64,000 nt of DNA from Phytophthora sp. 'mugwort'. Its lineage: Eukaryota; Oomycota; Peronosporomycetes; Peronosporales; Peronosporaceae. Location of the stretch: assembly GCA_033558025.1 (NCBI GenBank), contig JAUCEF010000013.1, forward strand, positions 861,001 to 925,000, in the 5' to 3' direction. Made by a program: the position numbers and the translations under genes. Below the pieces are notes generated by a model. That model was not told the origin of the DNA. It saw only the letters and a list, made by a program, of their open reading frames with translations, and did no database searches. Of the stretch, positions 21,791-64,000 are shown piece after piece. Every line of letters starts with the position of its first letter. Positions within the stretch are counted from its first letter, which is position 1.

Positions 21791-21833
21791 GCCGTTAGCG
21801 TTCAGCGAGAACCCTCTCAGGGCCCAATTCCCA

Positions 21834-24194: not shown

Positions 24195-24247
24195 TAGTAT
24201 ACCCGCCTGTCACGCGGGTGACCCGGGTTCAATTCCCGGACGGGAAG
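24195..24247 (+). pseudogene. 5'-truncated tRNA-Asp(GTC), left edge of the array
   Basis: Bases 20-72 of the array tRNA are present and unchanged, including anticodon GTC and the B box, but bases 1-19 (acceptor 5' strand and A box) are replaced by LINE-side sequence. Without an A box or acceptor stem it should not yield a tRNA. Confidence 0.93.
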
Positions 24248-24733
24248 CTTCTTTTGATCTTCGAATCCGATGATGTCACACCCCTGTGTCGCTTCGTTTA
24301 AGACGAACGCTGTGCCCGACTGTTCACAGCACACACCCCGCGCGCTGCCGCCTTGTCGCCATGGCTAGACTTCAAACAAGACGACCGTCGCTGACGAGGC
24401 TTGACCTCGGGCCCTCGTCGGTGGCGTGGCCCATTTCGTTGACAGATCCGCTGAGATGACACGTCTGGCATGTCGACCGAGTCCATGCTCGGCGTGGACC
24501 TGCTGCGGTGCGGTATGAATCGGTGGAGTGGCGTGGTGGCGGCATAGAATAGCGATCGCATGCGGCGGTCGTGGTGGGTTCCAGCACGGGTTTGAGGATG
24601 CAAGGTAGCGAAGAGGGTGTGAGCCAGGGCGTGCCGGCGCAGCAGGACGTGGTGTAGCGTGTGTCGGATGTGTGGCTGTGTGTAGATGCGTTTATTTGTT
24701 CGTTTTTGGCGATGAGTGCGTTCTTTGAACGGA

Positions 24734-24805
24734 TTCTCGTTAGTATAGTGGTTAGTATACCCGCCTGTCACGCGGGTGACCCGGGTTCAATTCCCGGACG
24801 GGAAG
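24734..24805 (+). tRNA. tRNA-Asp-GTC: tRNA-Asp(GTC), array copy 1
   Basis: The cloverleaf is complete. TTCTCGT pairs with ACGGGAA (one U-G pair) and the discriminator is G, as expected for Asp. The anticodon stem CCCGC/GCGGG encloses GTC at bases 34-36, and the T stem is CCGGG/CCCGG. Internal promoter: A box TAGTATAGTGG (8-18), B box GGTTCAATTCC (51-61). It has no intron. It reads GAC and, by wobble, GAU. The CCA end is not encoded. Spacer type H, T, with a private A in GACGAGGC. Confidence 0.98.
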
Positions 24806-25291
24806 CTTCTTTTGATCTTCGAATCCGTTGATGTCACACCCCTGTGTCGCTTCGTTTAAGACGAACGCTGTGCCCGACTGTTCACAGCACACACCCCGCG
24901 CGCTGCCGCCTTGTCGCCATGGCTAGACTTCAAACAAGACGACCGTCGCTGACGGGGCTTGACCTCGGGCCCTCGTCGATGGCGTGGCCCATTTCGTTGA
25001 CAGATCCGCTGAGATGACACGTCTGGCATGTCGACCGAGTCCATGCTCGGCGTGGACCTGCTGCGGTGCGGTATGAATCGGTGGAGTGGCGTGGTGGCGG
25101 CATAGAATAGCGATCGCATGCGGCGGTCGTGGTGGGTTCCAGCACGGGTTTGAGGATGCAAGGTAGCGAAGAGGGTGTGAGCCAGGGCGTGCCGGCGCAG
25201 CAGGACGTGGGGTAGCGTGTGTCGGATGTGTGGCTGTGTGTAGATGCGTTTATTTGTTCGTTTTTGGCGATGAGTGCGTTCTTTGAACGGA

Positions 25292-25363
25292 TTCTCGTTA
25301 GTATAGTGGTTAGTATACCCGCCTGTCACGCGGGTGACCCGGGTTCAATTCCCGGACGGGAAG
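25292..25363 (+). tRNA. tRNA-Asp-GTC: tRNA-Asp(GTC), array copy 2
   Basis: Same gene as copy 1. Spacer H, T, with GTCGATGG and a private GTGGGGTAGC. Confidence 0.98.
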
Positions 25364-25849
25364 CTTCTTTTGATCTTCGAATCCGTTGATGTCACACCCC
25401 TGTGTCGCTTCGTTTAAGACGAACGCTGTGCCCGACTGTTCACAGCACACACCCCGCGCGCTGCCGCCTTGTCGCCATGGCTAGACTTCAAACAAGACGA
25501 CCGTCGCTGACGGGGCTTGACCTCGGGCCCTCGTCGATGGCGTGGCCCATTTCGTTGACAGATCCGCTGAGATGACACGTCTGGCATGTCGACCGAGTCC
25601 ATGCTCGGCGTGGACCTGCTGCGGTGCGGTATGAATCGGTGGAGTGGCGTGGTGGCGGCATAGAATAGCGATCGCATGCGGCGGTCGTGGTGGGTTCCAG
25701 CACGGGTTTGAGGATGCAAGGTAGCGAAGAGGGTGTGAGCCAGGGCGTGCCGGCGCAGCAGGACGTGGTGTAGCGTGTGTCGGATGTGTGGCTGTGTGTA
25801 GATGCGTTTATTTGTTCGTTTTTGGCGATGAGTGCGTTCTTTGAACGGA

Positions 25850-25921
25850 TTCTCGTTAGTATAGTGGTTAGTATACCCGCCTGTCACGCGGGTGACCCGG
25901 GTTCAATTCCCGGACGGGAAG
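25850..25921 (+). tRNA. tRNA-Asp-GTC: tRNA-Asp(GTC), array copy 3
   Basis: Same gene as copy 1. Spacer H, T, sharing GTCGATGG with unit 2 only. Confidence 0.98.
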
Positions 25922-26407
25922 CTTCTTTTGATCTTCGAATCCGATGATGTCACACCCCTGTGTCGCTTCGTTTAAGACGAACGCTGTGCCCGACTGTTCA
26001 CAGCACACACCCCGCGCGCTGCCGCCTTGTCGCCATTGCTAGACTTCAAACAAGACGACCGTCGCTGACGGGGCTTGACCTCGGGCCCTCGTCGGTGGCG
26101 TGGCCCATTTCGTTGACAGATCCGCTGAGATGACACGTCTGGCATGTCGACCGAGTCCATGCTCGGCGTGGACCTGCTGCGGTGCGGTATGAATCGGTGG
26201 AGTGGCGTGGTGGCGGCATAGAATAGCGATCGCATGCGGCGGTCGTGGTGGGTTCCAGCACGGGTTTGAGGATGCAAGGTAGCGAAGAGGGTGTGAGCCA
26301 GGGCGTGCCGGCGCAGCAGGACGTGGTGTAGCGTGTGTCGGATGTGTGGCTGTGTGTAGATGCGTTTATTTGTTCGTTTTTGGCGATGAGTGCGTTCTTT
26401 GAACGGA

Positions 26408-26479
26408 TTCTCGTTAGTATAGTGGTTAGTATACCCGCCTGTCACGCGGGTGACCCGGGTTCAATTCCCGGACGGGAAG
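26408..26479 (+). tRNA. tRNA-Asp-GTC: tRNA-Asp(GTC), array copy 4
   Basis: Same gene as copy 1. Spacer N, T. Confidence 0.98.
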
Positions 26480-26965
26480 CTTCTTTTGATCTTCGAATCC
26501 GATGATGTCACACCCCTGTGTCGCTTCGTTTAAGACGAACGCTGTGCCCGACTGTTCACAGCACACACCCCGCGCGCTGCCGCCTTGTCGCCATTGCTAG
26601 ACTTCAAACAAGACGACCGTCGCTGACGGGGCTTGACCTCGGGCCCTCGTCGGTGGCGTGGCCCATTTCGTTGACAGATCCGCTGAGATGACACGTCTGG
26701 CATGTCGACCGAGTCCATGCTCGGCGTGGACCTGCTGTGGTGCGGTATGAATCGGTGGAGTGGCGTGGTGGCGGCATAGAATAGCGATCGCATGCGGCGG
26801 TCGTGGTGGGTTCCAGCACGGGTTTGAGGATGCAAGGTAGCGAAGAGGGTGTGAGCCAGGGCGTGCCGGCGCAGCAGGACGTGGTGTAGCGTGTGTCGGA
26901 TGTGTGGCTGTGTGTAGATGCGTTTATTTGTTCGTTTTTGGAGATGAGTGCGTTCTTTGAACGGA

Positions 26966-27037
26966 TTCTCGTTAGTATAGTGGTTAGTATACCCGCCTGT
27001 CACGCGGGTGACCCGGGTTCAATTCCCGGACGGGAAG
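26966..27037 (+). tRNA. tRNA-Asp-GTC: tRNA-Asp(GTC), array copy 5
   Basis: Same gene as copy 1. Spacer N, T, L, with a private CTGTGGTG. Confidence 0.98.
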
Positions 27038-27523
27038 CTTCTTTTGATCTTCGAATCCGATGATGTCACACCCCTGTGTCGCTTCGTTTAAGACGAACGC
27101 TGTGCCCGACTGTTCACAGCACACACCCCGCGCGCTGCCGCCTTGTCGCCATTGCTAGACTTCAAACAAGACGACCGTCGCTGACGGGGCTTGACCTCGG
27201 GCCCTCGTCGGTGGCGTGGCCCATTTCGTTGACAGATCCGCTGAGATGACACGTCTGGCATGTCGACCGAGTCCATGCTCGGCGTGGACCTGCTGCGGTG
27301 CGGTATGAATCGGTGGAGTGGCGTGGTGGCGGCATAGAATAGCGATCGCATGCGGCGGTCGTGGTGGGTTCCAGCACGGGTTTGAGGATGCAAGGTAGCG
27401 AAGAGGGTGTGAGCCAGGGCGTGCCGGCGCAGCAGGACGTGGTGTAGCGTGTGTCGGATGTGTGGCTGTGTGTAGATGCGTTTATTTGTTCGTTTTTGGC
27501 GATGAGTGCGTTCTTTGAACGGA

Positions 27524-27595
27524 TTCTCGTTAGTATAGTGGTTAGTATACCCGCCTGTCACGCGGGTGACCCGGGTTCAATTCCCGGACGGGAAG
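27524..27595 (+). tRNA. tRNA-Asp-GTC: tRNA-Asp(GTC), array copy 6
   Basis: Same gene as copy 1. Spacer N, T. Confidence 0.98.
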
Positions 27596-28081
27596 CTTCT
27601 TTTGATCTTCGAATCCGTTGATGTCACACCCCTGTGTCGCTTCGTTTAAGACGAACGCTGTGCCCGACTGTTCACAGCACACACCCCGCGCGCTGCCGCC
27701 TTGTCGCCATTGCTAGACTTCAAACAAGACGACCGTCGCTGACGGGGCTTGACCTCGGGCCCTCGTCGGTGGCGTGGCCCATTTCGTTGACAGATCCGCT
27801 GAGATGACACGTCTGGCATGACGACCGAGTCCATGCTCGGCGTGGACCTGCTGCGGTGCGGTATGAATCGGTGGAGTGGCGTGGTGGCGGCATAGAATAG
27901 CGATCGCATGCGGCGGTCGTGGTGGGTTCCAGCACGGGTTTGAGGATGCAAGGTAGCGAAGAGGGTGTGAGCCAGGGCGTGCCGGCGCAGCAGGACGTGG
28001 TGTAGCGTGTGTCGGATGTGTGGCTGTGTGTAGATGCGTTTATTTGTTCGTTTTTGGCGATGAGTGCGTTCTTTGAACGGA

Positions 28082-28153
28082 TTCTCGTTAGTATAGTGGT
28101 TAGTATACCCGCCTGTCACGCGGGTGACCCGGGTTCAATTCCCGGACGGGAAG
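28082..28153 (+). tRNA. tRNA-Asp-GTC: tRNA-Asp(GTC), array copy 7
   Basis: Same gene as copy 1. Spacer N, A; the first A-type unit. Confidence 0.98.
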
Positions 28154-28639
28154 CTTCTTTTGATCTTCGAATCCGATGATGTCACACCCCTGTGTCGCTT
28201 CGTTTAAGACGAACGCTGTGCCCGACTGTTCACAGCACACACCCCGCGCGCTGCCGCCTTGTCGCCATTGCTAGACTTCAAACAAGACGACCGTCGCTGA
28301 CGGGGCTTGACCTCGGGCCCTCGTCGGTGGCGTGGCCCATTTCGTTGACAGATCCGCTGAGATGACACGTCTGGCATGTCGACCGAGTCCATGCTCGGCG
28401 TGGACCTGCTGCGGTGCGGTATGAATCGGTGGAGTGGCGTGGTGGCGGCATAGAATAGCGATCGCATGCGGCGGTCGTGGTGGGTTCCAGCACGGGTTTG
28501 AGGATGCAAGGTAGCGAAGAGGGTGTGAGCCAGGGCGTGCCGGCGCAGCAGGACGTGGTGTAGCGTGTGTCGGATGTGTGGCTGTGTGTAGATGCGTTTA
28601 TTTGTTCGTTTTTGGAGATGAGTGCGTTCTTTGAACGGA

Positions 28640-28711
28640 TTCTCGTTAGTATAGTGGTTAGTATACCCGCCTGTCACGCGGGTGACCCGGGTTCAATTCC
28701 CGGACGGGAAG
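28640..28711 (+). tRNA. tRNA-Asp-GTC: tRNA-Asp(GTC), array copy 8
   Basis: Same gene as copy 1. Spacer N, T, L. Confidence 0.98.
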
Positions 28712-29197
28712 CTTCTTTTGATCTTCGAATCCGATGATGTCACACCCCTGTGTCGCTTCGTTTAAGACGAACGCTGTGCCCGACTGTTCACAGCACACAC
28801 CCCGCGCGCTGCCGCCTTGTCGCCATTGCTAGACTTCAAACAAGACGACCGTCGCTGACGGGGCTTGACCTCGGGCCCTCGTCGGTGGCGTGGCCCATTT
28901 CGTTGACAGATCCGCTGAGATGACACGTCTGGCATGTCGACCGAGTCCATGCTCGGCGTGGACCTGCTGCGGTGCGGTATGAATCGGTGGAGTGGCGTGG
29001 TGGCGGCATAGAATAGCGATCGCATGCGGCGGTCGTGGTGGGTTCCAGCACGGGTTTGAGGATGCAAGGTAGCGAAGAGGGTGTGAGCCAGGGCGTGCCG
29101 GCGCAGCAGGACGTGGTGTAGCGTGTGTCGGATGTGTGGCTGTGTGTAGATGCGTTTATTTGTTCGTTTTTCGCGATGAGTGCGTTCTTTGAACGGA

Positions 29198-29269
29198 TTC
29201 TCGTTAGTATAGTGGTTAGTATACCCGCCTGTCACGCGGGTGACCCGGGTTCAATTCCCGGACGGGAAG
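29198..29269 (+). tRNA. tRNA-Asp-GTC: tRNA-Asp(GTC), array copy 9
   Basis: Same gene as copy 1. Spacer N, T, with a private TTTTCGCGATG. Confidence 0.98.
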
Positions 29270-29755
29270 CTTCTTTTGATCTTCGAATCCGTTGATGTCA
29301 CACCCCTGTGTCGCTTCGTTTAAGACGAACGCTGTGCCCGACTGTTCACAGCACACACCCCGCGCGCTGCCGCCTTGTCGCCATTGCTAGACTTCAAACA
29401 AGACGACCGTCGCTGACGGGGCTTGACCTCGGGCCCTCGTCGGTGGCGTGGCCCATTTCGTTGACAGATCCGCTGAGATGACACGTCTGGCATGACGACC
29501 GAGTCCATGCTCGGCGTGGACCTGCTGCGGTGCGGTATGAATCGGTGGAGTGGCGTGGTGGCGGCATAGAATAGCGATCGCATGCGGCGGTCGTGGTGGG
29601 TTCCAGCACGGGTTTGAGGATGCAAGGTAGCGAAGAGGGTGTGAGCCAGGGCGTGCCGGCGCAGCAGGACGTGGTGTAGCGTGTGTCGGATGTGTGGCTG
29701 TGTGTAGATGCGTTTATTTGTTCGTTTTTGGCGATGAGTGCGTTCTTTGAACGGA

Positions 29756-29827
29756 TTCTCGTTAGTATAGTGGTTAGTATACCCGCCTGTCACGCGGGTG
29801 ACCCGGGTTCAATTCCCGGACGGGAAG
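29756..29827 (+). tRNA. tRNA-Asp-GTC: tRNA-Asp(GTC), array copy 10
   Basis: Same gene as copy 1. Spacer N, A. Confidence 0.98.
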
Positions 29828-30313
29828 CTTCTTTTGATCTTCGAATCCGTTGATGTCACACCCCTGTGTCGCTTCGTTTAAGACGAACGCTGTGCCCGAC
29901 TGTTCACAGCACACACCCCGCGCGCTGCCGCCTTGTCGCCATTGCTAGACTTCAAACAAGACGACCGTCGCTGACGGGGCTTGACCTCGGGCCCTCGTCG
30001 GTGGCGTGGCCCATTTCGTTGACAGATCCGCTGAGATGACACGTCTGGCATGTCGACCGAGTCCATGCTCGGCGTGGACCTGCTGCGGTGCGGTATGAAT
30101 CGGTGGAGTGGCGTGGTGGCGGCATAGAATAGCGATCGCATGCGGCGGTCGTGGTGGGTTCCAGCACGGGTTTGAGGATGCAAGGTAGCGAAGAGGGTGT
30201 GAGCCAGGGCGTGCCGGCGCAGCAGGACGTGGTGTAGCGTGTGTCGGATGTGTGGCTGTGTGTAGATGCGTTTATTTGTTCGTTTTTGGCGATGAGTGCG
30301 TTCTTTGAACGGA

Positions 30314-30385
30314 TTCTCGTTAGTATAGTGGTTAGTATACCCGCCTGTCACGCGGGTGACCCGGGTTCAATTCCCGGACGGGAAG
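30314..30385 (+). tRNA. tRNA-Asp-GTC: tRNA-Asp(GTC), array copy 11
   Basis: Same gene as copy 1. Spacer N, T. Confidence 0.98.
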
Positions 30386-30870
30386 CTTCTTTTGATCTTC
30401 GAATCCGTTGATGTCACACCCCTGTGTCGCTTCGTTTAAGACGAACGCTGTGCCCGACTGTTCACAGCACACACCCCGCGCGCTGCCGCCTTGTCGCCAT
30501 TGCTAGACTTCAAACAAGACGACCGTCGCTGACGGGGCTTGACCTCGGGCCCTCGTCGGTGGCGTGGCCCATTTCGTTGACAGATCCGCTGAGATGACAC
30601 GTCTGGCATGACGACCGAGTCCATGCTCGGCGTGGACCTGCTGCGGTGCGGTATGAATCGGTGGAGTGGCGTGGTGGCGGCATAGAATAGCGATCGCATG
30701 CGGCGGTCGTGGTGGGTTCCAGCACGGGTTTGAGGATGCAAGGTAGCGAAGAGGGTGTGAGCCAGGGCGTGCCGGCGCAGCAGGACGTGGTGTAGCGTGT
30801 GTCGGATGTGTGGCTGTGTGTAGATGCGTTATTTGTTCGTTTTTGGCGATGAGTGCGTTCTTTGAACGGA

Positions 30871-30942
30871 TTCTCGTTAGTATAGTGGTTAGTATACCCG
30901 CCTGTCACGCGGGTGACCCGGGTTCAATTCCCGGACGGGAAG
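30871..30942 (+). tRNA. tRNA-Asp-GTC: tRNA-Asp(GTC), array copy 12
   Basis: Same gene as copy 1. Spacer N, A, del; the only unit joining A with del. Confidence 0.98.
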
Positions 30943-31428
30943 CTTCTTTTGATCTTCGAATCCGTTGATGTCACACCCCTGTGTCGCTTCGTTTAAGACG
31001 AACGCTGTGCCCGACTGTTCACAGCACACACCCCGCGCGCTGCCGCCTTGTCGCCATTGCTAGACTTCAAACAAGACGACCGTCGCTGACGGGGCTTGAC
31101 CTCGGGCCCTCGTCGGTGGCGTGGCCCATTTCGTTGACAGATCCGCTGAGATGACACGTCTGGCATGTCGACCGAGTCCATGCTCGGCGTGGACCTGCTG
31201 CGGTGCGGTATGAATCGGTGGAGTGGCGTGGTGGCGGCATAGAATAGCGATCGCATGCGGCGGTCGTGGTGGGTTCCAGCACGGGTTTGAGGATGCAAGG
31301 TAGCGAAGAGGGTGTGAGCCAGGGCGTGCCGGCGCAGCAGGACGTGGTGTAGCGTGTGTCGGATGTGTGGCTGTGTGTAGATGCGTTTATTTGTTCGTTT
31401 TTGGCGATGAGTGCGTTCTTTGAACGGA

Positions 31429-38869: not shown

Positions 38870-40394
38870 CAGTGCGCGCCAAAAAATTAGGAACAAACTT
38901 TGCGGCGCGATATCTCGGCTTCCACTGAGCCGTTTGGCTTGCTGTTTAGATATGAGGTCGCTATTAGCAATAAAAAACGTTGGTTTAGGCTAACAACCTG
39001 AGTTTTGTAGTTGGTGATAGGGCTTCTATACAAAAGACCACAATCGACACCGCGTCAGAATAATAAAAACATGGCAGACATACAAAATCCAATATTATTG
39101 GAATGATGGTCAAAATGGTTTGATGTGAGCTGACGCGTGTCAGTCGAGAATAATGGGGCTCGGCCCCAGCGTGAAAGAGCATGAGCGCGGCCGAATGGAA
39201 GGGCTGCGCGAGGCGGGACTGACGATACGCGAGGTCGCTGACCGTGTGGGCCGCTCGCCCACGTGCGTGTGGAACAACGTGACCAAGAATGAAGGAGAAC
39301 GAGAGGTAGAGAAGCGAGGGCGTCCGCTGAGCCTGACTGATCGCGAGCTGCGCGCTGTGGTTCGAGCCGCGGCGACGGGCACATCCTCGGCGGCTACGCT
39401 CAAGGTTGACTACAACTGCTCGTGCTCGGTGCGCACAATCCAGCGCCTGCTCTCCAGCGTCGACTGGCTTGTGTACGCGAAGATGGAGAAGACACTGGAC
39501 CTCACCCCGGCGCACAAGGAGGCACGGCGAACCTGGGCAAAGGAGATGGTGACCAAGCCCAAGATCTGGGAGCGCGTCGTGTTCTCGGATGAGAAAAAGT
39601 TCAATCTCGACGGCCCCGATGGCTACAAGCACTACTGGCGCGATCTGCGCAAGGCACCGCGCACGTACGTCAATCGCCAGAATGGCGGCGGGTCAGTGAT
39701 GGTCTGGGGGGCGTTCTCTTCGGCGGGTAGGTCCTCGCTGGCGATCCTGGTCGGCAAGCAGAAGTCAGAGGACTATGCCTACACCCTATCTGAGTACTTG
39801 CTGCCTTTTGCTCACCTCCATCACGGAGTCGATTTTGTGTTTCAGCAGGACAACGCTCCCATACATTCGTCGGCCATGACGCGCGAGTTCCTTGGCGAAA
39901 TGGAGGTCGAGGTCATGGAGTGGCCCGCTCGCTCCCCTGACCTCAACCCAATCGAGAATGTATGGAACGCGTTGTCCTCTGCTGTCTACGCGAATGGCAA
40001 GCAGTATCGCTCAACATCGGACCTGACCCGCGCTGTTCTCGACGCCTGGGAGCGCCTCAGTCCATCGCTCTGTGACGCGCTCCTCACCTCGATGCCGAAC
40101 CGGTGCATCGAAGTGATTGAGCGTCGCGGCGGTAAAACGCATTACTAGGTCCGACCATCATTCCAATAATATTGGATTTTGTATGTCTGCCATGTTTTTA
40201 TTATTCTGACGCAGTGTCGATTGTGGTCTTTTGTATAGAAGCCCTATCACCAACTACAAAACTCAGGTTGTTAGCCTAAACCAACGTTTTTTATTGCTAA
40301 TAGCGACCTCATATCTAAACAGCAAGCCAAACGGCTCAGTGGAAGCCGAGATATCGCGCCGCAAAGTTTGTTCCTAATTTTTTGGCGCGCACTG
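38870..40394 (+). mobile_element. Tc1-like DNA transposon, copy 1 (1,525 bp)
   Basis: The element is flanked by TA on both sides (38868-38869 and 40395-40396), the target duplication of Tc1/mariner. Unoccupied units read GCTAGAC at this site. Terminal inverted repeats are 242 bp (38870-39111 and 40153-40394), begin CAGTGCGCGCC and differ at one base near 39052. The inner ends carry the palindrome CCAATATTATTGG. The transposase frame fills the space between them. Confidence 0.97.
39153..40148 (+). CDS. Tc1-family transposase, DD34E, intact (copy 1)
   Basis: This 331-residue protein performs cut-and-paste transposition at TA sites. The N-terminal 110 residues form paired helix-turn-helix DNA-binding segments ([20 protein letters not shown], then [12 protein letters not shown]) separated by a basic [10 protein letters not shown]-hook-like linker. 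The catalytic domain has [16 protein letters not shown] (first Asp), [13 protein letters not shown] (second Asp) and [11 protein letters not shown] (Glu). Exactly 34 residues lie between the second Asp and the Glu, the Tc1 spacing. Length is normal for the family. The ATG at 39153 follows the 5' inverted repeat by 41 bp, and the stop lies 4 bp before the 3' repeat. No frameshift or missing catalytic residue is seen, so the enzyme could be active. Confidence 0.96.
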
Positions 40395-46532: not shown

Positions 46533-48057
46533 CAGTGCGCGCCAAAAAATTAGGAACAAACTTTGCGGCGCGATATCTCGGCTTCCACTGAGCCGTTTGG
46601 CTTGCTGTTTAGATATGAGGTCGCTATTAGCAATAAAAAACGTTGGTTTAGGCTAACAACCTGAGTTTTGTAGTTGGTGATAGGGCTTCTATACAAAAGA
46701 CCACAATCGACACCGCGTCAGAATAATAAAAACATGGCAGACATACAAAATCCAATATTATTGGAATGATGGTCAAAATGGTTTGATGTGAGCTGACGCG
46801 TGTCAGTCGAGAATAATGGGGCTCGGCCCCAGCGTGAAAGAGCATGAGCGCGGCCGAATGGAAGGGCTGCGCGAGGCGGGACTGACGATACGCGAGGTCG
46901 CTGACCGTGTGGGCCGCTCGCCCACGTGCGTGTGGAACAACGTGACCAAGAATGAAGGAGAACGAGAGGTAGAGAAGCGAGGGCGTCCGCTGAGCCTGAC
47001 TGATCGCGAGCTGCGCGCTGTGGTTCGAGCCGCGGCGACGGGCACATCCTCGGCGGCTACGCTCAAGGTTGACTACAACTGCTCGTGCTCGGTGCGCACA
47101 ATCCAGCGCCTGCTCTCCAGCGTCGACTGGCTTGTGTACGCGAAGATGGAGAAGACACTGGACCTCACCCCGGCGCACAAGGAGGCACGGCGAACCTGGG
47201 CAAAGGAGATGGTGACCAAGCCCAAGATCTGGGAGCGCGTCGTGTTCTCGGATGAGAAAAAGTTCAATCTCGACGGCCCCGATGGCTACAAGCACTACTG
47301 GCGCGATCTGCGCAAGGCACCGCGCACGTACGTCAATCGCCAGAATGGCGGCGGGTCAGTGATGGTCTGGGGGGCGTTCTCTTCGGCGGGTAGGTCCTCG
47401 CTGGCGATCCTGGTCGGCAAGCAGAAGTCAGAGGACTATGCCTACACCCTATCTGAGTACTTGCTGCCTTTTGCTCACCTCCATCACGGAGTCGATTTTG
47501 TGTTTCAGCAGGACAACGCTCCCATACATTCGTCGGCCATGACGCGCGAGTTCCTTGGCGAAATGGAGGTCGAGGTCATGGAGTGGCCCGCTCGCTCCCC
47601 TGACCTCAACCCAATCGAGAATGTATGGAACGCGTTGTCCTCTGCTGTCTACGCGAATGGCAAGCAGTATCGCTCAACATCGGACCTGACCCGCGCTGTT
47701 CTCGACGCCTGGGAGCGCCTCAGTCCATCGCTCTGTGACGCGCTCCTCACCTCGATGCCGAACCGGTGCATCGAAGTGATTGAGCGTCGCGGCGGTAAAA
47801 CGCATTACTAGGTCCGACCATCATTCCAATAATATTGGATTTTGTATGTCTGCCATGTTTTTATTATTCTGACGCAGTGTCGATTGTGGTCTTTTGTATA
47901 GAAGCCCTATCACCAACTACAAAACTCAGGTTGTTAGCCTAAACCAACGTTTTTTATTGCTAATAGCGACCTCATATCTAAACAGCAAGCCAAACGGCTC
48001 AGTGGAAGCCGAGATATCGCGCCGCAAAGTTTGTTCCTAATTTTTTGGCGCGCACTG
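46533..48057 (+). mobile_element. Tc1-like DNA transposon, copy 2
   Basis: Same length, TA site and orientation as copy 1; inverted repeats 46533-46774 and 47816-48057. Confidence 0.97.
46816..47811 (+). CDS. Tc1-family transposase (copy 2)
   Basis: Protein identical to copy 1 over all 331 residues, intact. Confidence 0.96.
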
Positions 48058-49733: not shown

Positions 49734-51258
49734 CAGTGCGCGCCAAAAAATTAGGAACAAACTTTGCGGCGCGATATCTCGGCTTCCACTGAGCCGTTTG
49801 GCTTGCTGTTTAGATATGAGGTCGCTATTAGCAATAAAAAACGTTGGTTTAGGCTAACAACCTGAGTTTTGTAGTTGGTGATAGGGCTTCTATACAAAAG
49901 ACCACAATCGACACCGCGTCAGAATAATAAAAACATGGCAGACATACAAAATCCAATATTATTGGAATGATGGTCAAAATGGTTTGATGTGAGCTGACGC
50001 GTGTCAGTCGAGAATAATGGGGCTCGGCCCCAGCGTGAAAGAGCATGAGCGCGGCCGAATGGAAGGGCTGCGCGAGGCGGGACTGACGATACGCGAGGTC
50101 GCTGACCGTGTGGGCCGCTCGCCCACGTGCGTGTGGAACAACGTGACCAAGAATGAAGGAGAACGAGAGGTAGAGAAGCGAGGGCGTCCGCTGAGCCTGA
50201 CTGATCGCGAGCTGCGCGCTGTGGTTCGAGCCGCGGCGACGGGCACATCCTCGGCGGCTACGCTCAAGGTTGACTACAACTGCTCGTGCTCGGTGCGCAC
50301 AATCCAGCGCCTGCTCTCCAGCGTCGACTGGCTTGTGTACGCGAAGATGGAGAAGACACTGGACCTCACCCCGGCGCACAAGGAGGCACGGCGAACCTGG
50401 GCAAAGGAGATGGTGACCAAGCCCAAGATCTGGGAGCGCGTCGTGTTCTCGGATGAGAAAAAGTTCAATCTCGACGGCCCCGATGGCTACAAGCACTACT
50501 GGCGCGATCTGCGCAAGGCACCGCGCACGTACGTCAATCGCCAGAATGGCGGCGGGTCAGTGATGGTCTGGGGGGCGTTCTCTTCGGCGGGTAGGTCCTC
50601 GCTGGCGATCCTGGTCGGCAAGCAGAAGTCAGAGGACTATGCCTACACCCTATCTGAGTACTTGCTGCCTTTTGCTCACCTCCATCACGGAGTCGATTTT
50701 GTGTTTCAGCAGGACAACGCTCCCATACATTCGTCGGCCATGACGCGCGAGTTCCTTGGCGAAATGGAGGTCGAGGTCATGGAGTGGCCCGCTCGCTCCC
50801 CTGACCTCAACCCAATCGAGAATGTATGGAACGCGTTGTCCTCTGCTGTCTACGCGAATGGCAAGCAGTATCGCTCAACATCGGACCTGACCCGCGCTGT
50901 TCTCGACGCCTGGGAGCGCCTCAGTCCATCGCTCTGTGACGCGCTCCTCACCTCGATGCCGAACCGGTGCATCGAAGTGATTGAGCGTCGCGGCGGTAAA
51001 ACGCATTACTAGGTCCGACCATCATTCCAATAATATTGGATTTTGTATGTCTGCCATGTTTTTATTATTCTGACGCAGTGTCGATTGTGGTCTTTTGTAT
51101 AGAAGCCCTATCACCAACTACAAAACTCAGGTTGTTAGCCTAAACCAACGTTTTTTATTGCTAATAGCGACCTCATATCTAAACAGCAAGCCAAACGGCT
51201 CAGTGGAAGCCGAGATATCGCGCCGCAAAGTTTGTTCCTAATTTTTTGGCGCGCACTG
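49734..51258 (+). mobile_element. Tc1-like DNA transposon, copy 3
   Basis: Same as copy 1 in length, site and orientation; exactly 3,201 bp after copy 2. Confidence 0.97.
50017..51012 (+). CDS. Tc1-family transposase (copy 3)
   Basis: Protein identical to copy 1, intact. Confidence 0.96.
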
Positions 51259-52934: not shown

Positions 52935-54459
52935 CAGTGCGCGCCAAAAAATTAGGAACAAACTTTGCGGCGCGATATCTCGGCTTCCACTGAGCCGTTT
53001 GGCTTGCTGTTTAGATATGAGGTCGCTATTAGCAATAAAAAACGTTGGTTTAGGCTAACAACCTGAGTTTTGTAGTTGGTGATAGGGCTTCTATACAAAA
53101 GACCACAATCGACACCGCGTCAGAATAATAAAAACATGGCAGACATACAAAATCCAATATTATTGGAATGATGGTCAAAATGGTTTGATGTGAGCTGACG
53201 CGTGTCAGTCGAGAATAATGGGGCTCGGCCCCAGCGTGAAAGAGCATGAGCGCGGCCGAATGGAAGGGCTGCGCGAGGCGGGACTGACGATACGCGAGGT
53301 CGCTGACCGTGTGGGCCGCTCGCCCACGTGCGTGTGGAACAACGTGACCAAGAATGAAGGAGAACGAGAGGTAGAGAAGCGAGGGCGTCCGCTGAGCCTG
53401 ACTGATCGCGAGCTGCGCGCTGTGGTTCGAGCCGCGGCGACGGGCACATCCTCGGCGGCTACGCTCAAGGTTGACTACAACTGCTCGTGCTCGGTGCGCA
53501 CAATCCAGCGCCTGCTCTCCAGCGTCGACTGGCTTGTGTACGCGAAGATGGAGAAGACACTGGACCTCACCCCGGCGCACAAGGAGGCACGGCGAACCTG
53601 GGCAAAGGAGATGGTGACCAAGCCCAAGATCTGGGAGCGCGTCGTGTTCTCGGATGAGAAAAAGTTCAATCTCGACGGCCCCGATGGCTACAAGCACTAC
53701 TGGCGCGATCTGCGCAAGGCACCGCGCACGTACGTCAATCGCCAGAATGGCGGCGGGTCAGTGATGGTCTGGGGGGCGTTCTCTTCGGCGGGTAGGTCCT
53801 CGCTGGCGATCCTGGTCGGCAAGCAGAAGTCAGAGGACTATGCCTACACCCTATCTGAGTACTTGCTGCCTTTTGCTCACCTCCATCACGGAGTCGATTT
53901 TGTGTTTCAGCAGGACAACGCTCCCATACATTCGTCGGCCATGACGCGCGAGTTCCTTGGCGAAATGGAGGTCGAGGTCATGGAGTGGCCCGCTCGCTCC
54001 CCTGACCTCAACCCAATCGAGAATGTATGGAACGCGTTGTCCTCTGCTGTCTACGCGAATGGCAAGCAGTATCGCTCAACATCGGACCTGACCCGCGCTG
54101 TTCTCGACGCCTGGGAGCGCCTCAGTCCATCGCTCTGTGACGCGCTCCTCACCTCGATGCCGAACCGGTGCATCGAAGTGATTGAGCGTCGCGGCGGTAA
54201 AACGCATTACTAGGTCCGACCATCATTCCAATAATATTGGATTTTGTATGTCTGCCATGTTTTTATTATTCTGACGCAGTGTCGATTGTGGTCTTTTGTA
54301 TAGAAGCCCTATCACCAACTACAAAACTCAGGTTGTTAGCCTAAACCAACGTTTTTTATTGCTAATAGCGACCTCATATCTAAACAGCAAGCCAAACGGC
54401 TCAGTGGAAGCCGAGATATCGCGCCGCAAAGTTTGTTCCTAATTTTTTGGCGCGCACTG
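52935..54459 (+). mobile_element. Tc1-like DNA transposon, copy 4
   Basis: Same as copy 1 in length, site and orientation; exactly 3,201 bp after copy 3. Confidence 0.97.
53218..54213 (+). CDS. Tc1-family transposase (copy 4)
   Basis: Protein identical to copy 1, intact. Confidence 0.96.
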
Positions 54460-56572: not shown

Positions 56573-57058
56573 CTTCTTTTGATCTTCGAATCCGTTGATG
56601 TCACACCCCTGTGTCGCTTCGTTTAAGACGAACGCTGTGCCCGACTGTTCACAGCACACACCCCGCGCGCTGCCGCCTTGTCGCCATGGCTAGACTTCAA
56701 ACAAGACGACCGTCGCTGACGGGGCTTGACCTCGGGCCCTCGTCGGTGGCGTGGCCCATTTCGTTGACAGATCCGCTGAGATGACACGTCTGGCATGTCG
56801 ACCGAGTCCATGCTCGGCGTGGACCTGCTGCGGTGCGGTATGAATCGGTGGAGTGGCGTGGTGGCGGCATAGAATAGCGATCGCATGCGGCGGTCGTGGT
56901 GGGTTCCAGCACGGGTTTGAGGATGCAAGGTAGCGAAGAGGGTGTGAGCCAGGGCGTGCCGGCGCAGCAGGACGTGGTGTAGCGTGTGTCGGATGTGTGG
57001 CTGTGTGTAGATGCGTTTATTTGTTTGTTTTTGGCGATGAGTGCGTTCTTTGAACGGA

Positions 57059-57130
57059 TTCTCGTTAGTATAGTGGTTAGTATACCCGCCTGTCACGCGG
57101 GTGACCCGGGTTCAATTCCCGGACGGGAAG
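57059..57130 (+). tRNA. tRNA-Asp-GTC: tRNA-Asp(GTC), array copy 48
   Basis: Same gene as copy 1. Spacer H, T, Q. Confidence 0.98.
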
Positions 57131-57615
57131 CTTCTTTTGATCTTCGAATCCGTTGATGTCACACCCCTGTGTCGCTTCGTTTAAGACGAACGCTGTGCCC
57201 GACTGTTCACAGCACACACCCCGCGCGCTGCCGCCTTGTCGCCATTGCTAGACTTCAAACAAGACGACCGTCGCTGACGGGGCTTGACCTCGGGCCCTCG
57301 TCGGTGGCGTGGCCCATTTCGTTGACAGATCCGCTGAGATGACACGTCTGGCATGTCGACCGAGTCCATGCTCGGCGTGGACCTGCTGCGGTGCGGTATG
57401 AATCGGTGGAGTGGCGTGGTGGCGGCATAGAATAGCGATCGCATGCGGCGGTCGTGGTGGGTTCCAGCACGGGTTTGAGGATGCAAGGTAGCGAAGAGGG
57501 TGTGAGCCAGGGCGTGCCGGCGCAGCAGGACGTGGTGTAGCGTGTGTCGGATGTGTGGCTGTGTGTAGATGCGTTATTTGTTCGTTTTTGGCGATGAGTG
57601 CGTTCTTTGAACGGA

Positions 57616-57687
57616 TTCTCGTTAGTATAGTGGTTAGTATACCCGCCTGTCACGCGGGTGACCCGGGTTCAATTCCCGGACGGGAAG
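57616..57687 (+). tRNA. tRNA-Asp-GTC: tRNA-Asp(GTC), array copy 49
   Basis: Same gene as copy 1. Spacer N, T, del. Confidence 0.98.
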
Positions 57688-57807
57688 CTTCTTTTGATCT
57701 TCGAATCCGTTGATGTCACACCCCTGTGTCGCTTCGTTTAAGACGAACGCTGTGCCCGACTGTTCACAGCACACACCCCGCGCGCTGCCGCCTTGTCGCC
57801 ATTGCTA

Positions 57808-59332
57808 CAGTGCGCGCCAAAAAATTAGGAACAAACTTTGCGGCGCGATATCTCGGCTTCCACTGAGCCGTTTGGCTTGCTGTTTAGATATGAGGTCGCT
57901 ATTAGCAATAAAAAACGTTGGTTTAGGCTAACAACCTGAGTTTTGTAGTTGGTGATAGGGCTTCTATACAAAAGACCACAATCGACACCGCGTCAGAATA
58001 ATAAAAACATGGCAGACATACAAAATCCAATATTATTGGAATGATGGTCAAAATGGTTTGATGTGAGCTGACGCGTGTCAGTCGAGAATAATGGGGCTCG
58101 GCCCCAGCGTGAAAGAGCATGAGCGCGGCCGAATGGAAGGGCTGCGCGAGGCGGGACTGACGATACGCGAGGTCGCTGACCGTGTGGGCCGCTCGCCCAC
58201 GTGCGTGTGGAACAACGTGACCAAGAATGAAGGAGAACGAGAGGTAGAGAAGCGAGGGCGTCCGCTGAGCCTGACTGATCGCGAGCTGCGCGCTGTGGTT
58301 CGAGCCGCGGCGACGGGCACATCCTCGGCGGCTACGCTCAAGGTTGACTACAACTGCTCGTGCTCGGTGCGCACAATCCAGCGCCTGCTCTCCAGCGTCG
58401 ACTGGCTTGTGTACGCGAAGATGGAGAAGACACTGGACCTCACCCCGGCGCACAAGGAGGCACGGCGAACCTGGGCAAAGGAGATGGTGACCAAGCCCAA
58501 GATCTGGGAGCGCGTCGTGTTCTCGGATGAGAAAAAGTTCAATCTCGACGGCCCCGATGGCTACAAGCACTACTGGCGCGATCTGCGCAAGGCACCGCGC
58601 ACGTACGTCAATCGCCAGAATGGCGGCGGGTCAGTGATGGTCTGGGGGGCGTTCTCTTCGGCGGGTAGGTCCTCGCTGGCGATCCTGGTCGGCAAGCAGA
58701 AGTCAGAGGACTATGCCTACACCCTATCTGAGTACTTGCTGCCTTTTGCTCACCTCCATCACGGAGTCGATTTTGTGTTTCAGCAGGACAACGCTCCCAT
58801 ACATTCGTCGGCCATGACGCGCGAGTTCCTTGGCGAAATGGAGGTCGAGGTCATGGAGTGGCCCGCTCGCTCCCCTGACCTCAACCCAATCGAGAATGTA
58901 TGGAACGCGTTGTCCTCTGCTGTCTACGCGAATGGCAAGCAGTATCGCTCAACATCGGACCTGACCCGCGCTGTTCTCGACGCCTGGGAGCGCCTCAGTC
59001 CATCGCTCTGTGACGCGCTCCTCACCTCGATGCCGAACCGGTGCATCGAAGTGATTGAGCGTCGCGGCGGTAAAACGCATTACTAGGTCCGACCATCATT
59101 CCAATAATATTGGATTTTGTATGTCTGCCATGTTTTTATTATTCTGACGCAGTGTCGATTGTGGTCTTTTGTATAGAAGCCCTATCACCAACTACAAAAC
59201 TCAGGTTGTTAGCCTAAACCAACGTTTTTTATTGCTAATAGCGACCTCATATCTAAACAGCAAGCCAAACGGCTCAGTGGAAGCCGAGATATCGCGCCGC
59301 AAAGTTTGTTCCTAATTTTTTGGCGCGCACTG
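57808..59332 (+). mobile_element. Tc1-like DNA transposon, copy 5
   Basis: Same as copy 1 in length, site and orientation; 4,873 bp after copy 4. Confidence 0.97.
58091..59086 (+). CDS. Tc1-family transposase (copy 5)
   Basis: Protein identical to copy 1, intact. Confidence 0.96.
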
Positions 59333-59700
59333 TAGACTTCAAACAAGACGACCGTCGCTGACGGGGCTTGACCTCGGGCCCTCGTCGGTGGCGTGGCCCA
59401 TTTCGTTGACAGATCCGCTGAGATGACACGTCTGGCATGACGACCGAGTCCATGCTCGGCGTGGACCTGCTGCGGTGCGGTATGAATCGGTGGAGTGGCG
59501 TGGTGGCGGCATAGAATAGCGATCGCATGCGGCGGTCGTGGTGGGTTCCAGCACGGGTTTGAGGATGCAAGGTAGCGAAGAGGGTGTGAGCCAGGGCGTG
59601 CCGGCGCAGCAGGACGTGGTGTAGCGTGTGTCGGATGTGTGGCTGTGTGTAGATGCGTTTATTTGTTCGTTTTTGGCGATGAGTGCGTTCTTTGAACGGA

Positions 59701-59772
59701 TTCTCGTTAGTATAGTGGTTAGTATACCCGCCTGTCACGCGGGTGACCCGGGTTCAATTCCCGGACGGGAAG
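59701..59772 (+). tRNA. tRNA-Asp-GTC: tRNA-Asp(GTC), array copy 50
   Basis: Same gene as copy 1. Spacer split by transposon copy 5; A type. Confidence 0.98.
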
Positions 59773-60258
59773 CTTCTTTTGATCTTCGAATCCGTTGATG
59801 TCACACCCCTGTGTCGCTTCGTTTAAGACGAACGCTGTGCCCGACTGTTCACAGCGCACACCCCGCGCGCTGCCGCCTTGTCGCCATTGCTAGACTTCAA
59901 ACAAGACGACCGTCGCTGACGGGGCTTGACCTCGGGCCCTCGTCGGTGGCGTGGCCCATTTCGTTGACAGATCCGCTGAGATGACACGTCTGGCATGTCG
60001 ACCGAGTCCATGCTCGGCGTGGACCTGCTGCGGTGCGGTATGAATCGGTGGAGTGGCGTGGTGGCGGCATAGAATAGCGATCGCATGCGGCGGTCGTGGT
60101 GGGTTCCAGCACGGGTTTGAGGATGCAAGGTAGCGAAGAGGGTGTGAGCCAGGGCGTGCCGGCGCAGCAGGACGTGGTGTAGCGTGTGTCGGATGTGTGG
60201 CTGTGTGTAGATGCGTTTATTTGTTCGTTTTTGGCGATGAGTGCGTTCTTTGAACGGA

Positions 60259-60330
60259 TTCTCGTTAGTATAGTGGTTAGTATACCCGCCTGTCACGCGG
60301 GTGACCCGGGTTCAATTCCCGGACGGGAAG
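60259..60330 (+). tRNA. tRNA-Asp-GTC: tRNA-Asp(GTC), array copy 51
   Basis: Same gene as copy 1. Spacer G, N, T. Confidence 0.98.
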
Positions 60331-60816
60331 CTTCTTTTGATCTTCGAATCCGTTGATGTCACACCCCTGTGTCGCTTCGTTTAAGACGAACGCTGTGCCC
60401 GACTGTTCACAGCACACACCCCGCGCGCTGCCGCCTTGTCGCCATTGCTAGACTTCAAACAAGACGACCGTCGCTGACGGGGCTTGACCTCGGGCCCTCG
60501 TCGGTGGCGTGGCCCATTTCGTTGACAGATCCGCTGAGATGACACGTCTGGCATGACGACCGAGTCCATGCTCGGCGTGGACCTGCTGCGGTGCGGTATG
60601 AATCGGTGGAGTGGCGTGGTGGCGGCATAGAATAGCGATCGCATGCGGCGGTCGTGGTGGGTTCCAGCACGGGTTTGAGGATGCAAGGTAGCGAAGAGGG
60701 TGTGAGCCAGGGCGTGCCGGCGCAGCAGGACGTGGTGTAGCGTGTGTCGGATGTGTGGCTGTGTGTAGATGCGTTTATTTGTTCGTTTTTGGCGATGAGT
60801 GCGTTCTTTGAACGGA

Positions 60817-60888
60817 TTCTCGTTAGTATAGTGGTTAGTATACCCGCCTGTCACGCGGGTGACCCGGGTTCAATTCCCGGACGGGAAG
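60817..60888 (+). tRNA. tRNA-Asp-GTC: tRNA-Asp(GTC), array copy 52
   Basis: Same gene as copy 1. Spacer N, A. Confidence 0.98.
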
Positions 60889-61008
60889 CTTCTTTTGATC
60901 TTCGAATCCGTTGATGTCACACCCCTGTGTCGCTTCGTTTAAGACGAACGCTGTGCCCGACTGTTCACAGCACACACCCCGCGCGCTGCCGCCTTGTCGC
61001 CATTGCTA

Positions 61009-62533
61009 CAGTGCGCGCCAAAAAATTAGGAACAAACTTTGCGGCGCGATATCTCGGCTTCCACTGAGCCGTTTGGCTTGCTGTTTAGATATGAGGTCGC
61101 TATTAGCAATAAAAAACGTTGGTTTAGGCTAACAACCTGAGTTTTGTAGTTGGTGATAGGGCTTCTATACAAAAGACCACAATCGACACCGCGTCAGAAT
61201 AATAAAAACATGGCAGACATACAAAATCCAATATTATTGGAATGATGGTCAAAATGGTTTGATGTGAGCTGACGCGTGTCAGTCGAGAATAATGGGGCTC
61301 GGCCCCAGCGTGAAAGAGCATGAGCGCGGCCGAATGGAAGGGCTGCGCGAGGCGGGACTGACGATACGCGAGGTCGCTGACCGTGTGGGCCGCTCGCCCA
61401 CGTGCGTGTGGAACAACGTGACCAAGAATGAAGGAGAACGAGAGGTAGAGAAGCGAGGGCGTCCGCTGAGCCTGACTGATCGCGAGCTGCGCGCTGTGGT
61501 TCGAGCCGCGGCGACGGGCACATCCTCGGCGGCTACGCTCAAGGTTGACTACAACTGCTCGTGCTCGGTGCGCACAATCCAGCGCCTGCTCTCCAGCGTC
61601 GACTGGCTTGTGTACGCGAAGATGGAGAAGACACTGGACCTCACCCCGGCGCACAAGGAGGCACGGCGAACCTGGGCAAAGGAGATGGTGACCAAGCCCA
61701 AGATCTGGGAGCGCGTCGTGTTCTCGGATGAGAAAAAGTTCAATCTCGACGGCCCCGATGGCTACAAGCACTACTGGCGCGATCTGCGCAAGGCACCGCG
61801 CACGTACGTCAATCGCCAGAATGGCGGCGGGTCAGTGATGGTCTGGGGGGCGTTCTCTTCGGCGGGTAGGTCCTCGCTGGCGATCCTGGTCGGCAAGCAG
61901 AAGTCAGAGGACTATGCCTACACCCTATCTGAGTACTTGCTGCCTTTTGCTCACCTCCATCACGGAGTCGATTTTGTGTTTCAGCAGGACAACGCTCCCA
62001 TACATTCGTCGGCCATGACGCGCGAGTTCCTTGGCGAAATGGAGGTCGAGGTCATGGAGTGGCCCGCTCGCTCCCCTGACCTCAACCCAATCGAGAATGT
62101 ATGGAACGCGTTGTCCTCTGCTGTCTACGCGAATGGCAAGCAGTATCGCTCAACATCGGACCTGACCCGCGCTGTTCTCGACGCCTGGGAGCGCCTCAGT
62201 CCATCGCTCTGTGACGCGCTCCTCACCTCGATGCCGAACCGGTGCATCGAAGTGATTGAGCGTCGCGGCGGTAAAACGCATTACTAGGTCCGACCATCAT
62301 TCCAATAATATTGGATTTTGTATGTCTGCCATGTTTTTATTATTCTGACGCAGTGTCGATTGTGGTCTTTTGTATAGAAGCCCTATCACCAACTACAAAA
62401 CTCAGGTTGTTAGCCTAAACCAACGTTTTTTATTGCTAATAGCGACCTCATATCTAAACAGCAAGCCAAACGGCTCAGTGGAAGCCGAGATATCGCGCCG
62501 CAAAGTTTGTTCCTAATTTTTTGGCGCGCACTG
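61009..62533 (+). mobile_element. Tc1-like DNA transposon, copy 6
   Basis: Same as copy 1 in length, site and orientation; exactly 3,201 bp after copy 5. Confidence 0.97.
61292..62287 (+). CDS. Tc1-family transposase (copy 6)
   Basis: Protein identical to copy 1, intact. Confidence 0.96.
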
Positions 62534-62901
62534 TAGACTTCAAACAAGACGACCGTCGCTGACGGGGCTTGACCTCGGGCCCTCGTCGGTGGCGTGGCCC
62601 ATTTCGTTGACAGATCCGCTGAGATGACACGTCTGGCATGACGACCGAGTCCATGCTCGGCGTGGACCTGCTGCGGTGCGGTATGAATCGGTGGAGTGGC
62701 GTGGTGGCGGCATAGAATAGCGATCGCATGCGGCGGTCGTGGTGGGTTCCAGCACGGGTTTGAGGATGCAAGGTAGCGAAGAGGGTGTGAGCCAGGGCGT
62801 GCCGGCGCAGCAGGACGTGGTGTAGCGTGTGTCGGATGTGTGGCTGTGTGTAGATGCGTTTATTTGTTCGTTTTTGGCGATGAGTGCGTTCTTTGAACGG
62901 A

Positions 62902-62973
62902 TTCTCGTTAGTATAGTGGTTAGTATACCCGCCTGTCACGCGGGTGACCCGGGTTCAATTCCCGGACGGGAAG
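62902..62973 (+). tRNA. tRNA-Asp-GTC: tRNA-Asp(GTC), array copy 53
   Basis: Same gene as copy 1. Spacer split by transposon copy 6; A type. Confidence 0.98.
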
Positions 62974-63459
62974 CTTCTTTTGATCTTCGAATCCGTTGAT
63001 GTCACACCCCTGTGTCGCTTCGTTTAAGACGAACGCTGTGCCCGACTGTTCACAGCGCACACCCCGCGCGCTGCCGCCTTGTCGCCATTGCTAGACTTCA
63101 AACAAGACGACCGTCGCTGACGGGGCTTGACCTCGGGCCCTCGTCGGTGGCGTGGCCCATTTCGTTGACAGATCCGCTGAGATGACACGTCTGGCATGTC
63201 GACCGAGTCCATGCTCGGCGTGGACCTGCTGCGGTGCGGTATGAATCGGTGGAGTGGCGTGGTGGCGGCATAGAATAGCGATCGCATGCGGCGGTCGTGG
63301 TGGGTTCCAGCACGGGTTTGAGGATGCAAGGTAGCGAAGAGGGTGTGAGCCAGGGCGTGCCGGCGCAGCAGGACGTGGTGTAGCGTGTGTCGGATGTGTG
63401 GCTGTGTGTAGATGCGTTTATTTGTTCGTTTTTGGAGATGAGTGCGTTCTTTGAACGGA

Positions 63460-63531
63460 TTCTCGTTAGTATAGTGGTTAGTATACCCGCCTGTCACGCG
63501 GGTGACCCGGGTTCAATTCCCGGACGGGAAG
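63460..63531 (+). tRNA. tRNA-Asp-GTC: tRNA-Asp(GTC), array copy 54
   Basis: Same gene as copy 1. Spacer G, N, T, L. Confidence 0.98.
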
Positions 63532-64000
63532 CTTCTTTTGATCTTCGAATCCGTTGATGTCACACCCCTGTGTCGCTTCGTTTAAGACGAACGCTGTGCC
63601 CGACTGTTCACAGCGCACACCCCGCGCGCTGCCGCCTTGTCGCCATTGCTAGACTTCAAACAAGACGACCGTCGCTGACGGGGCTTGACCTCGGGCCCTC
63701 GTCGGTGGCGTGGCCCATTTCGTTGACAGATCCGCTGAGATGACACGTCTGGCATGTCGACCGAGTCCATGCTCGGCGTGGACCTGCTGCGGTGCGGTAT
63801 GAATCGGTGGAGTGGCGTGGTGGCGGCATAGAATAGCGATCGCATGCGGCGGTCGTGGTGGGTTCCAGCACGGGTTTGAGGATGCAAGGTAGCGAAGAGG
63901 GTGTGAGCCAGGGCGTGCCGGCGCAGCAGGACGTGGTGTAGCGTGTGTCGGATGTGTGGCTGTGTGTAGATGCGTTTATTTGTTCGTTTTTGGCGATGAG
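63532..64000 (+). repeat. Unfinished array unit at the right edge
   Basis: Spacer of type G, N, T, cut by the window about 17 bp before the next tRNA would start. It is the only case of two G units in a row. Confidence 0.95.

Follow-up and report, generated by a model that had tools for sequence, protein, structure and literature searches.

A 163-copy tandem array of tRNA-Asp(GTC) genes in a Phytophthora genome and the mobile elements within it

The genome assembly of Phytophthora sp. 'mugwort' contains a locus of 163 tandemly repeated tRNA-Asp(GTC) genes. Part of this locus occupies the right-hand portion of the window, the stretch of 64,000 nucleotides analysed here, which corresponds to C13:861001-925000 of the 86.26-Mb, 154-contig assembly. 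C stands for contig number, and array positions outside the window are given as C13 coordinates. The whole locus spans C13:885195-1002495, or about 117 kb. We propose, with a probability of about 0.75, that the nuclear tRNA-Asp(GTC) family is gathered in this one array, which would be kept uniform by unequal exchange and most likely supplies tRNA-Asp. The sequence around the array comprised the window, 150 kb to its right and 20 kb to its left, 234 kb in all.

In the window, ARAGORN identifies 54 full-length tRNA-Asp(GTC) genes between positions 24734 and 63532, all on the + strand, and Rfam reports the same 54 genes at 62 bits. One further copy, the 55th, starts at 24196 and is missing the first 19 nucleotides. 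The A box TAGTATAGTGG is present in 54 of the 55 copies, whereas the B box GGTTCAATTCC and a TTTT run within 15 nucleotides past the tRNA end are present in all 55. Consecutive genes are 557-558 bp apart; the only exceptions are six steps of 2,085 bp, in which the spacer contains a transposon. The first-pass annotation of the window had described at least 54 head-to-tail genes of a single isoacceptor with intact A and B boxes and terminators, and these counts bear it out. Its spacing of 557-558 bp holds for most steps, but the six longer ones went unmentioned. Its 40-kb array at 24195..64000 is correct in coordinates, but the array continues to C13:1002495. It also overlooked the transposon gaps, an inverted arm and a retrotransposon at the border. 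This part of the array contains the following features.

24196..64000, + strand: window part of the tRNA-Asp(GTC) tandem array, with 54 full-length genes and one 5'-truncated gene; unit of 557-558 bp
24196..24249, + strand: truncated first tRNA-Asp, starting from nucleotide 20 and fused to the 5' end of a long interspersed nuclear element (LINE)
24734..24806, + strand: first full-length tRNA-Asp(GTC), typical of the 54, with A box TAGTATAGTGG and B box GGTTCAATTCC, then TTCTTTT
24807..25291, + strand: typical spacer of 485 bp, lying between consecutive tRNA-Asp genes

BLAST of one unit resolves the locus into two arms of opposite orientation. The + strand arm runs from C13:885195 to 953479 and is followed by 5.9 kb without units. 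The - strand arm then extends from 959356 to 988071, and after a further 12.3 kb without units, more - strand units continue to C13:1002495. A 38-mer from the 3' part of the tRNA, searched with up to three mismatches, counts 107 forward and 56 reverse copies, the two groups being separated by a retrotransposon. The 161 intervals between neighbours measure 558 bp (122), 557 bp (10), 526 bp (20), 555 bp (1), 523 bp (1), 2,085 bp (6, with the transposon) and 12,859 bp (1, with a LINE). The 73-nt tRNA sequence is identical in 152 of the 163 copies, and TTTT follows within 15 nucleotides in 158. One copy is truncated, and in another LINE sequence takes the place of the first nucleotides. The 234 kb contain no N letters.

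Rfam, applied to about two units, finds no further RNA in the spacer at E up to 1 except tRNA or tRNA-like matches that overlap tRNA-Asp. For the part of the array that lies in the window, Tandem Repeats Finder (TRF) reports no tandem repeats with periods of up to 500; as 500 is the longest period it handles, it is silent on the 558-bp array. A 162-residue antisense frame recurs in most units and was not counted as a gene; the frame extends into the tRNA. A 75-bp fragment of the Asp spacer (unit positions 98-172), 99% identical, lies alone at C16:981916-981990, with no tRNA in the 401 bp around it.

The locus appears to be the only home of the family. The 38-mer search of the whole assembly, with the same three mismatches allowed, returns 107 and 56 matches on the two strands, equal to the locus count. 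A generic pattern of the GTC anticodon loop and T-arm returns 107 and 55 genome-wide, equal to the exact 38-mers in the locus (107 and 55). Thus, no tRNA-Asp(GTC) outside the locus is found in two whole-genome pattern counts. A whole-genome scan with RF00005 scored 63 of 9,329 candidates. Six of these 63 places were inspected and are presumably mitochondrial; small contigs likewise carry what we take to be mitochondrial tRNA clusters, some as inverted pairs.

The array is not terminal, since it lies 0.885 Mb inside the 5.37-Mb contig C13. Its far end is 4.37 Mb from the opposite contig end, and the C13 terminus on that side consists of TTTAGGG repeats. The C13 start, 885 kb from the array, lies within what we take to be an 18S rRNA gene. 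With 18S ribosomal DNA (rDNA) and a telomere repeat at the contig ends, 0.885 and 4.37 Mb distant, a subtelomeric location is rejected.

Each 558-bp unit would represent one complete gene for RNA polymerase III (Pol III), with internal A and B boxes and a T-run terminator. Pol III would transcribe the array in whole or in part, and its job would be to supply the cell with tRNA-Asp. Among the roles listed in the first-pass annotation, supply is now favoured because the two pattern counts show no tRNA-Asp(GTC) elsewhere, whereas subtelomeric filler is unlikely given the distances to the contig ends. All tRNA-Asp(GTC) genes found by the two counts in the 86-Mb genome would then form a single recombining locus, so that the tRNA-Asp dose should shift by unequal crossing-over. 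Links between array size, codon demand and fitness become testable.

The units vary in a pattern that suggests exchange among them. Two LINE-joined units were dropped from the 160 aligned, and the remaining 158 units comprise 72 distinct sequences and differ from one another by an average of 0.72% and by at most 2.66%; the spacers are indeed homogenised, as first noted. In the + arm, to which this comparison is confined, neighbours differ by 0.45%, compared with 0.56% in shuffled order, where the lowest value among 200 shuffles is 0.51%. The variants form mosaics, and blocks of several units recur, one example being a transposon unit followed by a 156G unit and a 298A unit; the recurring blocks contain the same transposon. 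A 32-bp deletion is present in 21 units (20 of 526 bp and one of 523 bp), three of them in the + arm (C13:949009-952260) and 18 in the - arm (964102-986400). Five unit sequences are letter-for-letter common to both arms. Mosaic, block-wise variation and sharing between arms are what unequal crossing-over and conversion produce. By these processes the array would grow, shrink and stay uniform.

The transposon in the spacers probably reflects the same exchange. An identical 1,525-bp element, accompanied by a duplicated TA, occupies every 2,085-bp step, at the same unit position every time. The ends of the element form inverted repeats of about 240 bp, as judged from self-matches. A frame of 339 codons matches DDE_3 (E = 2.9e-16), and the second D and the E of the transposase are 34 residues apart (DD34E). 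The inverted repeats, the DDE_3 match and the 34-residue spacing identify a Tc1-like transposon, and all six inserts display the TA duplication, terminal inverted repeats (TIRs) and DD34E transposase of Tc1/mariner elements. The genome contains at least 20 full-length copies, six in the array and 14 elsewhere, among the 40 of 74 candidates that were scored. The six copies in the array are as follows.

38870..40394, + strand: Tc1-like copy 1, with TIRs of about 240 bp, TA duplication and DDE_3 frame at 39129-40148
46533..48057, + strand: Tc1-like copy 2, identical, same unit position
49734..51258, + strand: Tc1-like copy 3, identical, same unit position
52935..54459, + strand: Tc1-like copy 4, identical, same unit position
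57808..59332, + strand: Tc1-like copy 5, identical, same unit position
61009..62533, + strand: Tc1-like copy 6, identical, same unit position

Identical copies at one unit position in all likelihood derive from a single insertion that was multiplied later by the array. Unequal crossing-over and conversion would have turned this one insertion into six.

A LINE family marks the borders and breaks of the locus. The copy in the window is the following.

17233..24195, - strand: non-LTR (long terminal repeat) retrotransposon (LINE) with broken frames, bordering the array and of the same family as the copies within the locus

The 5' end of this copy cuts the first tRNA of the array. A second copy, C13:953480-959355, has its 5' part inverted and lies exactly at the junction of the opposite arms. 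A third, C13:988072-1000359, sits inside a tRNA-Asp gene and is flanked on both sides by TCGTTAGTATAGTGG, which equals nucleotides 4-18 of tRNA-Asp. It contains a nested LTR element (C13:993936-998665), which is Copia-like as judged by eye. A fourth copy, C13:1002646-1010202, is located just beyond the right end of the array, about 75 bp past a complete tRNA-Thr.

The arrangement of the arms admits two explanations. The + arm breaks off at position 103 of the unit, and the - arm, at its far end, begins at position 113, which fits one inversion. However, the - units nearest the junction are identical to + units near the junction: p947893 equals m960753 and m962427, and p948451 and p949535 equal m961869 (p and m denote the + and - arm). 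These identities would suit fold-back or inter-arm exchange better than a simple 49-kb inversion. A nearest-unit test between the arms gives no clear trend (Spearman -0.23, p = 0.09).

Arrays are also found for three of the four other isoacceptors tried (Glu, Lys and Thr, but not Cys). The Glu(CTC) pattern has 164 matches on one strand; the 100 listed all lie at C5:5279825 to 5337956, with steps mostly of 558-561 bp. In a 4-kb piece of this array, ARAGORN identifies six genes, all tRNA-Glu. A BLAST match between the Asp unit and this piece is confined to the tRNA and a few bases beyond, and the spacers are unmatched. Lys(CTT) has 128 matches on one strand, of which the 100 listed lie at C10:1318661-1372877 with steps of 547-548 bp. 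Thr(TGT) has 22 matches, 20 forward and one reverse at C17:3722785-3761896 and one at C13:1002532. The steps of the C17 array are mostly 1,131-1,245 bp, and its two larger gaps are occupied by LINE copies. The remaining match is a lone tRNA-Thr(TGT) at the right end of the Asp array, C13:1002502-1002573, which may be a fragment of the C17 array relocated there. The unit lengths of the Asp (558 bp), Glu (about 560 bp) and Lys (547-548 bp) arrays are near one another, and a length constraint such as nucleosome phasing is a possible reason.

Several observations weigh against a uniformly functional, single-locus supply of tRNA-Asp. Eight copies carry G17A in the A box/D loop, one copy has an ATC anticodon, and five copies lack TTTT; five genes of the locus carry TTCTTTAG in place of TTCTTTT. 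The tRNA has 2 variable columns out of 73 and the spacer 38 out of 485, a difference that is not significant (Fisher p = 0.145), so that stronger constraint on the tRNA, or selection on every copy, is not demonstrated. A looser Asp pattern gives 272 matches; among the 100 listed, 87 lie in the array and 13 on C2-C11. None of these 13 places resembles tRNA-Asp by eye, and several are one recurrent sequence like the LINE tail, but strongly diverged tRNA-Asp genes may exist elsewhere. Finally, the Cys pattern finds 78 sites of one identical sequence (77 on C15 and contigs from C19 upward, one on C16) and no nuclear array. These sites presumably represent a mitochondrial gene.

Statements on published systems, here and below, refer to excerpts of the papers cited. 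One alternative is a mostly silent, tRNA-derived satellite, in which few copies would be transcribed and the rest would be heterochromatic passengers kept by recombination, in the manner of the Ser/Tyr cluster of Arabidopsis. The similar conservation of spacer and tRNA between copies and the presence of transposons in the array are consistent with it, and the tandem tRNA cluster of Arabidopsis is silenced in most tissues (PMC12308677). However, some copies must be active if there is no other nuclear tRNA-Asp gene, as the two pattern counts suggest, and the identity of 152 of 163 copies over 73 nt and the TTTT retained in 158 also speak against it. We regard a silent satellite as possible but rather unlikely.

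A structural main role, as a chromatin boundary or nuclear organiser rather than a source of tRNA, is improbable. tRNA genes can serve as insulators in other systems. The authors of the P. infestans study raise a role in nuclear or chromatin organisation (PMC9584435). No sequence feature of the locus demands such a role, and the locus is not terminal, with LINE copies at its left border and just past its right end. An assembly artefact, with repeat copies falsely multiplied or misjoined, is more improbable still: tRNA gene numbers do differ between assemblies of one species (PMC9584435), and the inverted arm and the exact sharing of units between arms could partly be assembly joins, but the 72 distinct sequences among 158 units, the locally clustered variants, the internal LINE and transposon landmarks and the absence of N in 234 kb argue against it, and in P. 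infestans the copy numbers of assembled tRNA genes were borne out by read depth (PMC9584435). Our preferred reading remains a recombining array that supplies tRNA-Asp.

The LINE family extends well beyond the Asp locus. The copy at C13:1002646-1010202 encodes a reverse transcriptase (RVT_1, E = 3.2e-28). A candidate APE-type endonuclease match (Exo_endo_phos_2) in the LINE reaches 24.4 bits, below the Pfam cut-off of 27.4, and the matching piece of another copy has no family match. The genome contains at least 40 matches to the 5' end (40 of 62 candidates scored) and at least 40 to the 3' end (40 of 174 scored). Of the 40 5' junctions, 28 were read: the three at the Asp locus, the next 19 in rank and six lower-ranked ones for which the 3' end was also listed.

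Eleven of the 28 junctions lie inside a tRNA gene or at its 5' edge, namely Thr (two), Phe, Asn, Gly, Leu, Arg (two), Ala and Asp (two). Ten of these genes were identified by program or by the array itself, one Arg only at E = 0.69, and Ala was identified by eye. At the remaining 17 junctions, which include that of the copy at C13:1002646, no tRNA was seen to be cut by the junction. Target duplications of 11-29 letters are present in 11 of the 17 copies read at both ends. When the flanks of these 11 are rejoined, a complete tRNA gene is restored in seven (Asp, Asn, Phe, Gly, Leu, Thr and Thr) and none in four. Six independent events are the safer count, because the two Thr copies have an identical junction and may be one insertion copied by the array. 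The duplications span about nucleotides -5 to +26 of the tRNA (to 45 in Thr), with the LINE in both orientations. Among the six copies that lack a target duplication are the one in the window and an Arg copy in which the two flanks repeat each other in inverted orientation. As a small background only, window positions 1-24194 and nine flanking 10-kb stretches contain no tRNA.

The LINE thus shows an apparent preference for tRNA gene bodies in a modest sample, and this preference is a newer finding than the array itself. The tail of the LINE contains a B-box-like sequence, GGGTTCAATCCC, but it was rejected as a tRNA gene: Rfam finds nothing at E up to 1, and ARAGORN finds nothing at its normal setting and only low-grade matches at a permissive one. 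The 3' flank of one LINE copy (C3:3351950-3352160) resembles a tRNA 3' half by eye and is unreported by Rfam at E up to 1.

It is an evenly balanced possibility that the tRNA arrays of this lineage offer a LINE aimed at active Pol III genes generally the kind of safe harbour that R2 has in rDNA. Such an element would cut any tRNA gene in its transcription start/A-box region, whatever the orientation, and arrays and element would shape each other. If so, the LINE breaks and flips arrays, and the arrays render its insertion into an essential gene harmless.

Two other features lie upstream of the array. Pieces of an LTR retrotransposon, with reverse transcriptase and integrase zinc-binding matches, occupy window positions 9925-12497. 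A host gene frame at 3699-4850 fuses an aminoacyl-tRNA editing domain with a Mut7-C RNase domain.

The Asp array is of the same kind as the single-isoacceptor arrays published for P. infestans, and its layout was therefore already known from an oomycete. These are its closest parallel, rather than Entamoeba, which the first-pass annotation had named. Matson et al. (2022) described about eight thousand tRNA genes in P. infestans, with copy numbers checked by read depth, and proposed unequal crossing-over (PMC9584435). In P. infestans, for example, 271 tRNA-Cys(GCA) genes are tandemly repeated on a single chromosome with a unit of 513 nt, and about two-thirds of tRNA families are each located on one chromosome (PMC9584435). 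Long-read oomycete assemblies contain from 380 to 8,606 tRNA genes (PMC9584435). The excerpts describe repeats of about 0.5 kb with a single tRNA gene each, in near-identical copies that number up to hundreds, and with grouped variants. The Asp array likewise consists of head-to-tail monomeric units of about 0.5 kb, a family on one chromosome and near-identical repeats with grouped variants. It differs in isoacceptor and genome, and two opposite arms, co-amplification of a transposon and a LINE inside genes are described for it, features that the excerpts on P. infestans do not mention. The single-isoacceptor layout of P. infestans is now shown for four isoacceptors in another genome.

Other tandem tRNA systems are more distant. 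Entamoeba also has tRNA genes in long tandem arrays, but there a unit contains as many as five tRNA genes, separated by short tandem repeats (PMC2652664). The Asp array has one tRNA per unit and, in its window part, no tandem repeat of period up to 500, and is not of the Entamoeba type. Tandem tRNA repeats are also shared by the human 1q23.3 variable number tandem repeat, with a 7.3-kb unit in 9-43 copies that binds CTCF (PMC4041453), and by the Arabidopsis cluster of mixed Ser and Tyr genes (PMC12308677).

The LINE can be compared with two groups of elements. The dictyostelid elements TRE5, TRE3, NLTR-A and NLTR-B are non-LTR elements and, like this LINE, are drawn to many different tRNA genes. 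Their insertions lie either 2-64 bp upstream of the mature tRNA sequence or 40-150 bp downstream of it (PMC5911963, PMC5006619). In contrast, insertions of this LINE fall within the 5' part of the tRNA gene or across it, in both orientations, and targeting of the TRE5 type, at a distance outside the gene, does not describe its duplications. NeSL-1_TV, LIN15_SM and LIN25_SM (PMC4640811) and the Dada DNA transposons, which insert inside the gene (PMC3706591), also target tRNA genes, each element or family being reported for one kind of tRNA gene. The LINE, by contrast, occurs at varying positions in genes for Asp, Asn, Phe, Gly, Leu, Thr and Arg tRNAs, and also at sites other than tRNA genes. 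Its target duplications, in Asp, Asn, Phe, Gly, Leu and Thr genes at differing positions and at four non-tRNA sites among the 11, do not fit a one-tRNA, one-site inserter. Among the titles and abstract openings listed by searches of open-licence PMC papers for retrotransposons in tRNA genes, none reports such an element in an oomycete. If the LINE targets Pol III genes in this manner, its mode would be distinct from those of the dictyostelid near-gene elements and the one-site inserters, and would represent a possible third way for retrotransposons to exploit Pol III genes.

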